Positions 42,218 through 49,275 of a stretch of 64,000 bases of DNA are shown here, in pieces (the stretch's first letter is position 1; each line of letters opens with the position of its first letter). The DNA is from Halomarina rubra (GTDB taxonomy: Archaea; Halobacteriota; Halobacteria; Halobacteriales; Haloarculaceae). The notes beneath the pieces were generated by a model. It ran no database searches and was not told the origin of the DNA. It saw only the letters and a list, made by a program, of their open reading frames with translations. The stretch lies in the NCBI RefSeq assembly GCF_023699475.1, contig NZ_JALXFV010000008.1, forward strand, positions 1 through 64,000, given 5' to 3'. Position numbers and translations under genes: made by a program.

Positions 42218-42339
42218 GACGCCGCCTGCTCGCGGTCGCGACCCGCGTCGCCCGTTCGCGCGCCGTGCGCTCTTCGACCGTCCCCCGACGTGACTCGCTG
42301 GCCCCACGCTTAACCGCCCGACGGGCGTAGGTCGTGGTA

Positions 42340-44130
42340 GTGAGTACACACCGGCGTGACACCGTCCTCCGGGTCGACCTGACCGCGGGGACGGTCGAGC
42401 GCGAACGCGTGCCCGAGCGCTGGCGACGGCAGTTCCTCGGCGGGAAGGGTCTCGGCGCACGCTACCTCTACGAGGACCTCGCCGCCGGGACGGACCCGCT
42501 CGGTCCGGACAACCTGCTGGCGATGGTCTGGGGGCCGCTGACGGGCTACCTCCCCGGCGAGTCGCGACTGGCCGTCGTCACGAAGTCGCCGCTGACCGGC
42601 GGGTTCCTCGACTCGTACGTGGGTGGGACGGTCCCCGACGCCCTCGCCGGCGCGCTCCCCGACTGTCTGGGCGTGCTGGTCACCGGCCGTGCGACCGACC
42701 CGACCACGCTCGTCGTCGCGGACGGCGACGCGCACCTCGAACCCGCGGACTGCTGGGGGGCGACGACCGACGAGACCGACGCCGCCTACGACGGCGCGGT
42801 CGCGTGTATCGGCCCCGCCGGCGAGCACCGCGTCCGCTACGCCACCGTCGCCACCGACGGTGGGGACCACCACGCCGGCCGTGGCGGTGCGGGGGCGGTA
42901 CTGGGCGCGAAACGACTGAAGGCGGTCGTCGCTCGCGGCGACCCACCGAAAGTCCCCGAAGACCTCGCCGGCCTGCGCGACACCGCCGAACGCGAGTACC
43001 GCGAGAGTTCGACCGGCCGCTGGCACGCCGCCAGCGGGACGCTCGAGAGCGTCGAGTTCGCCGACGCGGTCGGCGCGCTCGCCACCCGGGGATGGCGCGA
43101 GTCGCGTTTCGAGGGCAGCGAGGCCGTCGGCGTCGCTGCGGCACGCGCGGCGGCCACCGACCGCGAGCGCCCGGACCGGGACACGCCGGGTGACTTCCGC
43201 GTCGAGACCGACGCCGGCGAGTCGGTTCCGCGCGGGGCGGCCGCGATGAGCCTCGGGGCGGGACTCGGCATCGACGACTTCGACGCCGTCGCGGCGCTCG
43301 GTGCGACCTGCGACCGCCTCGGCATCGACGTCATCGACGCGGGCAGTGCCGTCGCGTGGGCGGTCCGCGCGAGCGAGACCGGGGCGCTCGACCGCTCGCT
43401 GTCGTTCGGTGACGCCGAGGCCGCCCGCGTGCTCGTGCGGGCCATCGCCCACCGTGACGGCGACCTCGCGGACACCCTCGCGGACGGTCTGGACGCGGCC
43501 GCCGAGCGCTACGGCGGGCGCGAGGTCGTCCCGTCGGTGAAGGCCATGGCGTTGCCCGCTTACGACCCCCGCGACGCCCCGGCGATGGCGCTCGCGTACG
43601 CGACGAGCGACCGGGGAGCGTGTCATCGCCGCGCCCGGCCCATCGAGACCGAAGCGTTCGACGGGGGGACGTGGAGCGACGCCGACCGCGTCGACCGCGT
43701 CGACCGGGCACAGACCGCCCGCTCGGCGCTGTGGAGCCTCGTCGTCGACGACTTCGTCGGCGAGACGGTCGACGACCTCGGCGCGTCCTGGCTGCAGGCG
43801 CTCGGCGACGACCACGACGTCGCGTCGCTGAGTCGCCTCGGCGAGCGCGTCTGGACGCTGACGCGCCTGTTCAACGTCCGGGAGGGGTTCGACCGACGCG
43901 ACGACCGCCTCCCGCCGGCGCTCACCGTCGCCGCGGCCGGCGGTGACGACGCGCTCGACCCCGAAGCGTTCGAGGCCCTCCTGTCGACGTACTACGCCGC
44001 CCGTGGCTGGGGGCCACGCGGCCGGCCGACCCGCCGAACGCTCGCACGTCTCGACCTCGCGGGGGTCGTGGACGCGGTGACGCCGCTCGACGACCGCGCG
44101 GTCGGTGTCGACCGGCCCGCCGACGACTGA
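42340..44130 (+). CDS. Aldehyde ferredoxin oxidoreductase-like protein lacking the Fe-S cluster ligands
   Basis: This 596-residue protein follows AOR throughout: RVDLTAGTVERE, GGKGLGARYLYE, GRGGAGAVLGAKRLKAVV for the bispyranopterin-phosphate site, and YDPRDAPAMALAYATSDRGACHRR near the cofactor. The CxxCxxxC stretch and the distant fourth Cys that hold the 4Fe-4S cluster in AOR are missing; the corresponding region reads AAARAAATDRERPDR. It therefore should still bind a pterin cofactor but could not pass electrons through the usual cluster. It is followed by a SAMP/MoaD-like carrier and two small genes. GTG 42340 is the assumed start; GTG 42334 is also possible. Confidence 0.8.
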   Translation: MSTHRRDTVLRVDLTAGTVERERVPERWRRQFLGGKGLGARYLYEDLAAGTDPLGPDNLLAMVWGPLTGYLPGESRLAVVTKSPLTGGFLDSYVGGTVPDALAGALPDCLGVLVTGRATDPTTLVVADGDAHLEPADCWGATTDETDAAYDGAVACIGPAGEHRVRYATVATDGGDHHAGRGGAGAVLGAKRLKAVVARGDPPKVPEDLAGLRDTAEREYRESSTGRWHAASGTLESVEFADAVGALATRGWRESRFEGSEAVGVAAARAAATDRERPDRDTPGDFRVETDAGESVPRGAAAMSLGAGLGIDDFDAVAALGATCDRLGIDVIDAGSAVAWAVRASETGALDRSLSFGDAEAARVLVRAIAHRDGDLADTLADGLDAAAERYGGREVVPSVKAMALPAYDPRDAPAMALAYATSDRGACHRRARPIETEAFDGGTWSDADRVDRVDRAQTARSALWSLVVDDFVGETVDDLGASWLQALGDDHDVASLSRLGERVWTLTRLFNVREGFDRRDDRLPPALTVAAAGGDDALDPEAFEALLSTYYAARGWGPRGRPTRRTLARLDLAGVVDAVTPLDDRAVGVDRPADD

Positions 44131-44228: not shown

Positions 44229-44510
44229 ATGGATGTCGACCTGCGGTTCTTCGCCACGTTCAGGGAGGCGGTGGGACAGAAGAACATCACACGGGCGTTC
44301 GACGACGGACTCACCATCGGCGACCTGTTGGCGGCGCTCGAGAGCGAGTTCGACGGGTTGGAGGGAGAACTGCTCGACGACACGGGCGACATCCGCCCGC
44401 AGTTGAGCGTCCTGAAGAACGGTCGCGAGGTGCTCCACATCGACGGCACCGCGACCGAACTCGACGACGGCGACACGGTGTCGGTGTTCCCGCCGGTGGC
44501 GGGCGGATAG
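44229..44510 (+). CDS. Ubiquitin-like SAMP/MoaD family sulfur carrier
   Basis: This 93-residue protein has the beta-grasp fold (DVDLRFFATFREAVGQKN, TIGDLLAALESEF, SVLKNGREVLHIDGTATELDDGDTVSVFPPVAGG) and ends in the diglycine needed for adenylation by an E1-like enzyme. The sequence resembles haloarchaeal SAMP3 and MoaD-type proteins. Such proteins can donate sulfur for molybdopterin or tungstopterin and can be conjugated to other proteins. The AOR-like gene directly upstream supports a pterin-cofactor role. A TATA-like ggatttatg (44198-44206) lies about 27 bases upstream. Confidence 0.85.
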   Translation: MDVDLRFFATFREAVGQKNITRAFDDGLTIGDLLAALESEFDGLEGELLDDTGDIRPQLSVLKNGREVLHIDGTATELDDGDTVSVFPPVAGG

Positions 44511-44786
44511 ATGCAGGTCGAACGCTCGTTCCGCGGCATCTCGAAGCGACTCGCGACCCACTACCTCGAGAACCTGGGCGGCGAACGCGTCGACGGCGAC
44601 CCCCAGGGTGAGGGGCCGGTCGACGTCGAGGGTGGGGACTGGACGGCGACGCTCACCGACGAGAAGGTGACCGCGGCGGGGTCGTTCACACTGACGGAGG
44701 TGACCGTCGTGTTCGAGGGCGAGGAGGCCGCACTCGACGGACTGGTCGACGACTTCGCCCAGAAGGCGATGCGCGCGGGGGGATGA
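44511..44786 (+). CDS. Small conserved partner of the MoaD-like carrier, unknown function
   Basis: This 91-residue protein starts directly after the stop of the MoaD-like gene with no spacer. It has an alternating strand-helix pattern (QVERSFRGISKRLATHYLENLGGERV, DWTATLTDEKV, LTEVTVVFEGEEAALDGLVDDFAQKAMRAGG). It may correspond to the extra domain that some organisms carry fused to MoaD, but this is only an inference from position and size. No catalytic residues are apparent. The next gene overlaps its end by 4 bases. Confidence 0.6.
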   Translation: MQVERSFRGISKRLATHYLENLGGERVDGDPQGEGPVDVEGGDWTATLTDEKVTAAGSFTLTEVTVVFEGEEAALDGLVDDFAQKAMRAGG

Positions 44787-45151
44787 ACGGCGACCCCATC
44801 GACGGGCCCGCACTGCTCCTGGCGGCCGCGAAGGCCAGCGTCGGCCCGCAACTCCTCCCCGACCTCGTCGACCACGTCCAGGCCGACCTGGGAGAGCGAC
44901 TCGACGACTACCGCCGTCGGTACGAACTCGTCGACGAGACCGACGACGCCTGCGTCTTCCTCGTCGAAGCGGGGCACTGGGAGACTCTCGGTGACCGTCT
45001 CGGCCTCGACCGGCGCGAACGCGACGCGGTGAAACGCGCCCACGAAGAACACCTCCGGCGGGTCGGTGAACGGACCGAGCGCCGCGAGGAGTTCGAGACC
45101 GCACTCGAGATCCGCGAGTGCGTCGTCGTCGGCAGAGCCGTGGCGAACTGA
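44783..45151 (+). CDS. Small helical protein in the AOR-like operon, unknown function
   Basis: This 122-residue protein overlaps the preceding stop by 4 bases (ATGA), showing co-translation. It is helical, with GPALLLAAAKASVGPQLLPDLVDHVQADLGERLDDYRRRYELV, then EAGHWETLGDRLGLDRRERDAVKRAHEEHLRRVG. No metal-binding cluster or membrane helix is seen. It forms the last gene of the AOR-like, SAMP-like, small, small run and may be an accessory of pterin insertion or maturation; this is speculation from context. Confidence 0.55.
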   Translation: MNGDPIDGPALLLAAAKASVGPQLLPDLVDHVQADLGERLDDYRRRYELVDETDDACVFLVEAGHWETLGDRLGLDRRERDAVKRAHEEHLRRVGERTERREEFETALEIRECVVVGRAVAN

Positions 45152-47337: not shown

Positions 47338-49275
47338 TCAGTCGTCGCTCGGGGCGGCCGTGCTGTCGCCCGTGGAGACGCCGGTGCCGGGGCCGACGTC
47401 GATGCCCAGTTCGTCGAGCTTCTCGTCGGGGACGACGCCGTCGACCCAGCCGCGGTGCTCGTAGTACTCGGCTTTCATCTGGTCGAGTTCGGCGAGCTGG
47501 CCTTCGCTGGCACCCTGGCCGGGGATGGCCTCCTCGTGGCCCTCCACGAAGCGGTTCGGGAGCGTGTCGTCGCTGCCGTCGAAGCCCGCGAGGTTGTTGT
47601 AGTAGCGTTCGAGCGTCCAGACGCGCTCGCCGGCCTGCATCAGTTCGTCCTCGCTGACGTCGAGACCCGTCATGCCGTTGTACTGCATGACGTACTCCTC
47701 GATGCCCTCCGCGAACGCGTTGAACTTGCAGATGTCGAACGAGTCCGAGATGGCGTGGAGGTCCTGGAACGCGGCTGCGAGCGCGCCTTTGCCCTCCGGT
47801 TCGTAGGGGTCGACCTTCTCCGGGATGCCGAGAATCTCGGCGGCGGGCGTGTACGCCCGCAGGTGGCACGCACCGCGGTTGGACGTGGCGTAGGCGATGG
47901 CCATGCCCTTCATGCAACGCGGGTCGTACGCCGGGATGGTCTGGCCCTTGACTGCCAGCGAGTTCGACTGCGCGTCGAACTCCTCGACGAGGTGGTTCGA
48001 GCCACCGCCGAGGTGGGTCGCGAGTTCGCCCTCCGCGTGGGCGATGTCCTCGATGAGGTCGATCATGTGCTCGACGTCACCCCAGTCGATGGAGTCGTCG
48101 AGACCGTCCAGCTTGCCCTGCTCGGACATCTCCATCGCCATGGCGAGCATGTTGCCCGTCTCGATGGTGTCCATCCCGAAGCGGTTGCACTGGTCGATCA
48201 TCACCGCGATGGCGTCGCGGTCGTCGTGTCCCGAGTTCGGCCCGAGCGCGTACGCGGACTCGTACTCGTAGGACTCCATCCGGACGTTCATCTCCTCGCC
48301 CTTGTGCGAGTGGGTCACCTCGACCTCCTTCTTACACGCGACCGGGCAGGAGTGACAGGTCGGTTCGTCGACGAGGATGTTCTCGCGGACGTTCTCCCCG
48401 GAGACGCGCTCGGCGTCGATGTCGACGCCTTCGGAGTTCGCGTACGCCGTCGTCGAGGTGTACTTCCCGTTCTTCGTCGGGAGGCCGTCCATCTCGTCGG
48501 TCGGGTTCATGAGGACGTTCGTCCCGTACAGCGAGAGACCACCCTCGTTCGGCCCGGTGACCTCCGACTCGCGGATGACCTGCATCGCCTGCTGGTGGCC
48601 CGTCTTGAACGTCTCGGGCTCTTTGGGCTTGGGCATCTTCGTCGTCGACTTGACGACGATGGCCTTCAGGTTCTTGTTGCCCATCACGCAGCCGGTGCCG
48701 CCACGTCCGGAGGCACGGTCGTCCTCGTTGACGATGCAGGCGTACTTCACGCCGTTCTCGCCACCGGGGCCGATGGCCATGATGGACATGTTCTTGCCGA
48801 ACGAGCCGTCGCACTCGTCTTCGAGTTCGTCTTTCGTCTCGTGGACGTCCCAGCCCCAAATGTCGCGGGCGTCACGCAGTTCGACCTCGCCGTCCTCGAC
48901 GAACGCGTACACCGGGTGTTCGGACTCTCCTTCGAACAGCAGGCCGTCGAACCCGGCCCACTTGAGGCGTGCGCCCGACCAGCCACCGTGGTGCGAGTCG
49001 GTGACCGTGCCGGTGAGCGGGGACTTCGTACACACCGCGATGCGACCGCTCATCACCGTCTGGGTGCCGGTGAGCGGTCCGTTCATGAACGCGAGCAGGT
49101 TCTCCGGACTCTCCGGGTCCACGTCCGGACCCTGGTCGAAGACGTACTTCACGCCGAGGCCGCGCGCGCCGATGTACTTCCGGGCGTCCTCGTCGTCGAT
49201 GCTCTCGTAGTTGACGTCCCCCGAGGAGAGGTCGACCCGGGCGACGTGATCTTGGAATCCACCTAGTTCAGTCAT
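47338..49275 (-). CDS. aor: Aldehyde ferredoxin oxidoreductase (tungsten-pterin enzyme)
   Basis: This 645-residue enzyme oxidises aldehydes to acids with ferredoxin as acceptor, using a tungsten or molybdenum bispyranopterin and one 4Fe-4S cluster. All cluster ligands are present: C307-x2-C310-x3-C314 (PTCHSCPVACKKE) and C516 (DICKFNAF). Cofactor-binding features are SGRGGTGCVMGNKNLKAIV and AYDPRCMKGMAIAYATSNRG. Several Cys-containing loops are intact. It is monocistronic, with a 242-base region before the ATG. A paralogue lacking the Fe-S ligands lies 5 kb away and may be functionally related. Confidence 0.93.
   Translation of the reverse strand: MTELGGFQDHVARVDLSSGDVNYESIDDEDARKYIGARGLGVKYVFDQGPDVDPESPENLLAFMNGPLTGTQTVMSGRIAVCTKSPLTGTVTDSHHGGWSGARLKWAGFDGLLFEGESEHPVYAFVEDGEVELRDARDIWGWDVHETKDELEDECDGSFGKNMSIMAIGPGGENGVKYACIVNEDDRASGRGGTGCVMGNKNLKAIVVKSTTKMPKPKEPETFKTGHQQAMQVIRESEVTGPNEGGLSLYGTNVLMNPTDEMDGLPTKNGKYTSTTAYANSEGVDIDAERVSGENVRENILVDEPTCHSCPVACKKEVEVTHSHKGEEMNVRMESYEYESAYALGPNSGHDDRDAIAVMIDQCNRFGMDTIETGNMLAMAMEMSEQGKLDGLDDSIDWGDVEHMIDLIEDIAHAEGELATHLGGGSNHLVEEFDAQSNSLAVKGQTIPAYDPRCMKGMAIAYATSNRGACHLRAYTPAAEILGIPEKVDPYEPEGKGALAAAFQDLHAISDSFDICKFNAFAEGIEEYVMQYNGMTGLDVSEDELMQAGERVWTLERYYNNLAGFDGSDDTLPNRFVEGHEEAIPGQGASEGQLAELDQMKAEYYEHRGWVDGVVPDEKLDELGIDVGPGTGVSTGDSTAAPSDD

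Follow-up and report, generated by a model that had tools for sequence, protein, structure and literature searches.

In a 64,000-nucleotide stretch of Halomarina rubra (contig NZ_JALXFV010000008.1, hereafter the window), a forward-strand gene at 42340..44130 encodes a protein with the AOR fold and none of the cysteines that hold the AOR Fe-S cluster. We name this Cys-less AOR-fold protein, and the clade it belongs to, AORx. The results presented below establish AORx as a real, conserved lineage within the AOR family whose members all lack the cluster cysteines, and a description of this clade was not found in the open literature searched (open-licence papers). To the reading that AORx is no longer a ferredoxin-linked aldehyde oxidoreductase, but a non-redox carrier or maturation factor for the Mo/W bis-molybdopterin (bis-MPT) cofactor of formate dehydrogenases (FDHs) and related enzymes in haloarchaea, we give an even chance.

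Loss of cluster and catalytic residues in a retained AOR fold

The AORx ORF, read from a GTG start at 42340 (its longest frame begins at 42334), encodes 596 amino acids and is a real gene, with strongly biased GC content across codon positions (0.79/0.57/0.91). Pfam identifies AFOR domains only, with no FdhD domain (PF02634), and its matches to AFOR_N (8.4e-60) and AFOR_C (2.9e-81) together cover nearly the whole protein. The AlphaFold (AF2) model is confident (pLDDT 91.6, pTM 0.93) and superposes on AOR/FOR structures across its full length, with Foldseek TM scores of 0.91-0.92 against 1b25, 9mqx and 1aor (0.92 for 1b25, 0.91 for 1aor). By sequence and by fold, AORx is hence a member of the AOR/WOR family.

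A sequence-only reading of the window had described this protein as devoid of cluster ligands and had set it against a Cys-bearing paralogue nearby, and both observations were borne out. The C-x2-C-x3-C motif is absent and all four Cys positions are replaced. In alignment with Pyrococcus AOR (1aor), C288, C291, C295 and C494 correspond to D279, T282, F286 and D470, the first three at 43174..43197 on the + strand; clade-wide, the four positions have an acidic side chain, Val (or Ile), Phe and Asp, respectively. The paralogue (47338..49275, - strand) carries CHSCPVAC and is an ordinary clade-83 WOR, closely related to WOR83 of Haloferax volcanii, whose structure is solved (9q1t) and which it matches over its full length in phmmer. 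Enzyme-type AOR/WOR proteins bind a [4Fe-4S] cluster through C-x2-C-x3-C and a fourth Cys, and this motif was found in 0/79 AORx orthologues. No new conserved Cys appears at the aligned cluster site of these orthologues; the only conserved cysteines of the clade are C156, C324 and C428, of which the last two are ordinary AOR residues and C156 is common to the sister clade too.

The sequence-only reading had overlooked that the region of the catalytic Glu313 is replaced as well. In known AORs, Thr243, Glu313, Tyr427 and His448 surround the metal, and Glu311, Tyr312 and Tyr452 are also conserved (PMC12096430). In AORx, the alignment places P297-R298-G299-A300 (43228..43239, +) where P310-Glu311-Tyr312-Glu313 would stand, so that Glu311-Tyr312 becomes Arg-Gly and the catalytic acid is gone. 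Among the 73 full-length orthologues aligned, which underlie all residue counts given here, R298 is found in 72/73 and G299 in 73/73, and the Glu313 equivalent is Ala, Gly or Ser in all 73. The second-shell set is therefore incomplete, with the Thr, Tyr and His equivalents present in 73/73 and Glu313 lost.

The pterin-binding segments reported as retained, GRGGAGAVLGAKRLKAV and YDPR...DRGACHRR, are indeed kept, and they are invariant or nearly so across the clade. Within the GRGGAGAVLGAKRLKAVV region (residues 180-197, 42877..42930, +), R181 corresponds to PfAOR R182, and R181 and G182 are found in 73/73 orthologues. Further along the same strand, T234 (43039..43041) aligns with the second-shell Thr243 and is Thr in 73/73, Y408 in YDPR (43561..43572) matches Tyr427 in 73/73, and RGACHRRARP (43612..43641) provides H429 for His448 in 73/73 and R433 for Tyr452 in 55/73. 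The equivalents of R182 and D343 are fixed in the clade, and that of R76 is present in 66/73.

We take the two PfAOR pterin motifs to run from Asp338 to Asp343 and from Asp489 to Cys494, after the 1995 structure paper. The first is kept as CDRLGID (43309..43329, +), with D330 in 73/73 and Asp or Asn at D325. The second (Asp489-x-x-Gly-Leu-Cys494) is rewritten as ALWSLVVDD (43726..43752, +), where W465 and D470, both fixed in 73/73, stand for Asp489 and for Cys494, the fourth cluster ligand. Because of this rewriting, the pocket is not wholly unchanged and binding of two pterins is not assured. Position 489 varies in Cys-bearing relatives too (Tyr in L140, His in L083), and its change alone is therefore no proof of pterin loss. 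The sequence-only reading had made its case depend on there being no substitute cysteines and on the pterin pocket being preserved; the former holds throughout, and the latter holds for most of the pocket but not for the second motif. As judged from these residues, AORx may bind Mo/W-bis-MPT.

The Cys-less form is conserved in haloarchaea, as the sequence-only reading had proposed to verify. All 79 orthologues, from at least 28 genera (78 from a genome scan plus the window's own), lack the motif, and the two further, distant matches from the same scan both have it. A second genome set of 30 loci, whose species are partly shared with the first, agrees on the Cys-less state. On the inferred tree, the Cys-less rows form one clade with support 100/100, with two haloarchaeal rows carrying CFGCPVAC as sister, and on this sequence evidence the loss of the cysteines has a single origin. 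Identity among AORx proteins is about 60% over 43 genera, with dozens of invariant columns. Since the Cys-less state is found in all 79 orthologues and the substitutes at the lost sites (W465, D470, G299, R298) are fixed, a sequencing or decay artefact is ruled out. A search for Cys-less relatives outside the haloarchaea found none among the matches read: the other ones in the phylum, and the two non-haloarchaeal ones, all carry the motif.

The nearest relatives of AORx are the Cys-bearing proteins of the sister clade (L138, L140 and L225, from genomes G032, G162 and G009), which share 40-46% identity with it and are useful for comparing the ancestral state. L140 is the valid sister row in the alignment, L138, L139 and L141 having been left out as wrong-strand ORFs. 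The HHAGRG segment is common to L140 and AORx, but the sister clade keeps CFGCPVAC or CYNCPVAC, in L140 GPEYE and the fourth Cys are present as well, and beside L138 and L140 no FDH, YqeC or cofactor genes were detected.

Gene neighbourhoods and distribution across haloarchaeal genomes

In the window, AORx is followed after 98 bp by SAMP1 (44229..44510, +; NF041918, 102 bits against a cut-off of 60), a MoaD-type ubiquitin-like sulfur carrier, and co-transcription of the two genes is possible. Next to it lies a gene for a 91-aa protein ending in Ala-Gly-Gly (44511..44786, +). This protein has no Pfam hit; its position and C-terminus make it a probable member of arCOG06308, the TBP-like GG family that Makarova and Koonin reported together with MoaD-type proteins (PMC2948915). 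The third gene, for a 122-aa protein (44783..45151, +), travels with SAMP1 across loci, and the three genes form a tight cluster (44229-45151) that recurs in several genera. As a general context of AORx, the SAMP1 operon was rejected: SAMP1 and its two partners neighbour AORx in no genera other than Halomarina, Haloprofundus and Haloplanus, apart from two genomes of one further genus. With linkage confined to so few genera, a role tied to SAMP1 was not kept as the main interpretation.

To characterize the wider context, we performed unsupervised ORF clustering around the 79 AORx loci, some of them truncated, and identified the recurring neighbours via Pfam and NCBIfam. These are YqeC, the FDH alpha subunit, a NarJ/TorD-type chaperone, a MobA-like NTP transferase, a NuoF-like protein and a polyferredoxin. 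With the NuoF-like protein left aside, one or more of the other five are encoded within a reach of about 6 kb in 67/79 loci, spanning 22 of 30 genus labels, where random placement would be expected to give a few per cent (estimated from about 12 genes in reach out of about 3500). YqeC is found at 43 of the 79 loci, FDH at 33 and either of them at 64. In the window's own genome, the NuoF-FDH-MobA-YqeC cluster sits on another contig than AORx, so that the link with FDH is there one of co-occurrence and not of adjacency. The FDH beside AORx varies by genus, being a cytosolic 704-aa form, a NuoG-fused 1100-aa form with NuoF, or a Tat-exported form with polyferredoxin and chaperone, and all three types have the Cys-His dyad. 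A constant AORx beside changing FDH types looks like an assembly or maturation factor rather than a subunit.

We then annotated 242 haloarchaeal genomes, calling AORx at a best E < 1e-80, with two Cys-bearing sister cases left out, and FDH alpha at E < 1e-195. AORx was present in 133 genomes, YqeC in 170 and FDH alpha in 172. All 133 AORx genomes contain YqeC and 126 contain FDH past the threshold; six of the remaining seven have a divergent FDH-like gene near the AORx locus. In genera that vary, YqeC is present in 83/83 genomes with AORx vs 24/51 without it. Stratified within genera, a CMH test associated AORx with both YqeC (p = 5e-11) and FDH (p = 2e-5), values to be read as guides only, given that shared ancestry inside genera remains. 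The Tat-exported FDH type (E < 1e-150) was detected in 15 genomes, all of which have AORx. FdhD (PF02634) was found in 0/242 haloarchaeal genomes, and eight control genomes score for it. AORx is accordingly found together with FDH and cofactor genes both across genomes and within loci, a pattern that a maturation factor should show. It is not, however, present wherever FDH is: 46 of the 172 FDH genomes have no AORx, which is therefore not obligatory for every FDH. As 34 of those 46 have YqeC, it is YqeC that accompanies FDH more regularly, with AORx as an extra component.

Several explanations for this incomplete overlap were considered and rejected. FDH genomes without AORx might have encoded another, divergent AOR lacking the cysteines, but in the 21 of them from which AORs were read, every such AOR has CxxCxxxC. 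AORx does not track the cytosolic FDH704 type alone, which is found in some 17 genomes lacking AORx. Nor are FDHs without YqeC false calls: the Cys-His dyad is present in the split-gene type, whose FDH score is 820 bits. This type is found in genomes without AORx and YqeC, and it seems independent of both. At the loci concerned (L201-L217), it comprises an alpha subunit of about 757-800 aa and a separate ferredoxin/NuoG-like N-terminal gene, and at two of them (L212 and L213) its neighbour is a further FDH-like gene, which carries DNRARxCH. In one genus (g15; G003, G012, G018, G023, G035, G067, G094, G127 and G234), YqeC and AORx are jointly present or absent, in five vs four species. Genomes of genus g3, home of the Haloarcula-like AORx loci, have two YqeC genes, one of them near AORx.

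Related systems and alternative explanations

WOR83 (9q1t) and the AORs sensu stricto (1aor, 9mqx) share with AORx the AFOR_N/AFOR_C architecture (TM about 0.9 to 1aor and 9mqx), the Tyr427, His448 and Thr243 equivalents and the GRGG pterin segment. AORx differs from them in lacking the four cluster cysteines, in having Arg-Gly-Ala for Glu311-Tyr312-Glu313 and Trp/Asp for Asp489/Cys494, and in its gene context. YdhV and BamB keep the Fe-S cluster, unlike AORx. E. coli YdhV (WOR clade 41) and BamB are AOR-family proteins without the usual second-shell residues, and YdhV, as proposed for AORx, holds a bis-Mo-MPT that MobA can convert to bis-MGD; both differ from AORx in having a Cys ligand to the metal, and neither is a close relative (PMC9103625, PMC12096430). 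WOR4 of Pyrococcus furiosus, for which aldehyde activity is not known, has an altered, Fe3S4 cluster with one Cys replaced by Gly (PMC12096430), but it has lost one ligand where AORx has lost all four. FdhD, the FDH sulfurtransferase/chaperone, resembles the proposed AORx in handling the FDH cofactor before insertion; it has no sequence relation to AORx and is absent from the haloarchaea tested.

Two further observations concern other AOR proteins. A Candidatus Hecatellales MAG (QMYD01000010.1; L082:6001-8445) encodes a Cys-bearing AOR with a C-terminal OMPdecase/HUMPS domain (PF00215, 1.6e-34), a family that includes hexulose-6-phosphate synthase, and by its domains this fusion possibly joins a formaldehyde oxidoreductase to formaldehyde fixation. 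A third AOR group, comprising L002 (from the window's own genome, C12:209354) and its relatives L144-L163, carries CSxCAFAC or CSxCAYAC, and L002 and L159 have His in place of Tyr427 and Asp in place of Cys447.

The main rival to a maturation factor is a distinct enzyme, which we regard as rather unlikely: AORx would bind W/Mo-pterin and catalyse another reaction, possibly without redox chemistry, in connection with formate or C1 metabolism, much as acetylene hydratase uses W-pterin for a hydration. The fixed Thr243, Tyr427 and His448 equivalents and the linkage to FDH genes are consistent with this, and Arg298 (fixed) and Arg433 (mostly fixed), replacing Glu311 and Tyr452, could bind an anionic substrate; yet Glu313 is lost, and AORx goes with several FDH types and cofactor genes instead of one metabolic pathway. 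AORx often lies immediately next to an FDH, NuoF-like or polyferredoxin gene, which would suit an accessory subunit of the FDH complex or a docking protein for polyferredoxin/NuoF modules. We consider such a role improbable, as AORx lies beside unrelated FDH types, many loci have no nearby FDH, and FDH is retained in AORx-less genomes of the same genus.

Equally improbable, in our judgement, is a sensor or regulator of FDH expression with the Mo/W cofactor (or formate) as its ligand. The loss of catalytic groups from a kept ligand pocket is typical of pseudoenzymes, but AFOR_N and AFOR_C span nearly all of AORx and there is no DNA-binding or signalling domain. That AORx still passes electrons, through a cluster held by other residues such as Asp470 or by a partner protein, is very unlikely. 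Asp can serve as a ligand, given that the WOR5 cluster is bound by three Cys and an Asp (PMC12096430), and D470 is fixed at the Cys494 position; the other three ligands, however, have given way to acidic, Val/Ile and Phe residues, and the aligned cluster site has gained no conserved Cys. A decaying, pseudogene-like remnant would explain the lost catalytic residues, but it is already contradicted by the identity level, the invariant columns and the fixed substitutes described above, and its probability is close to nil.

A proposed role in FDH cofactor maturation

Among the options raised by the sequence-only reading, a cofactor chaperone is favoured by the neighbourhoods and co-occurrence with YqeC, FDH, MobA-like and TorD-type chaperone genes, whereas the loss of the active-site Glu along with the cluster speaks against an aldehyde oxidoreductase of the normal kind that has changed its redox partner. 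A carrier role is further supported by the retention of the fold and most pocket residues, the joint loss of the cluster and the acid/base residues, and the fixed substitutes. The position of AORx ahead of the MoaD-type SAMP1 in the window also favours a link to the cofactor.

Metal-bis-MPT, the ligand of the AOR pocket, is at the same time what MobA uses as substrate to make bis-MGD. In the proposed mechanism, AORx would bind Mo/W-bis-MPT in its retained pocket, where the lack of the cluster and of Glu313 would preclude aldehyde turnover and electron passing. The cofactor would then pass to the MobA-like transferase, which would add the nucleotides, and YqeC and AORx would modify (sulfurate) it or deliver it to apo-FDH, covering part of the job done elsewhere by FdhD. 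Cofactor binding by AORx, its hand-over to MobA, any sulfuration role and the participation of YqeC in cofactor modification are all steps that we infer. The transfer has a precedent in vitro, where the bis-Mo-MPT of E. coli YdhV, an AOR-family protein, is converted to bis-MGD via MobA and then matures apo-TorA (PMC9103625). More tentatively, AORx, YqeC and the MobA-like protein may together constitute an FdhD-independent route for bis-pterin assembly and sulfuration in haloarchaeal FDH, with a former AOR enzyme as cofactor holder.

Several points count against this carrier role, among them the FDH genomes without AORx, the split-gene FDH type found without AORx and YqeC, the rewritten second pterin motif and, in the window's genome, the placement of FDH, YqeC and MobA on a different contig. 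The earliest link of YqeC was to selenium-dependent molybdenum hydroxylases, as an accessory protein, in Haloarcula marismortui among others (PMC2276186), and its deletion in C. difficile gave no clear phenotype (PMC11448449); it is a protein without proven function, whose role in any pathway here is putative. A sulfur-transfer role is disfavoured in that the only extra conserved Cys in AORx is C156, shared with the sister clade.

Magalon's 2023 review noted halobacteria with FDH genes but without fdhD, and left their maturation proteins as an open question (PMC10609526). AORx is a candidate for the factor that matures FDH in organisms lacking FdhD, and with named candidate genes showing strong distribution and linkage signals, the question of halobacterial FDH maturation becomes testable by deletion. 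Annotation as aldehyde ferredoxin oxidoreductase from Pfam matches alone would mislead for the whole AORx clade, which, if the proposed role is true, would represent an AOR-family redox enzyme turned cofactor carrier.
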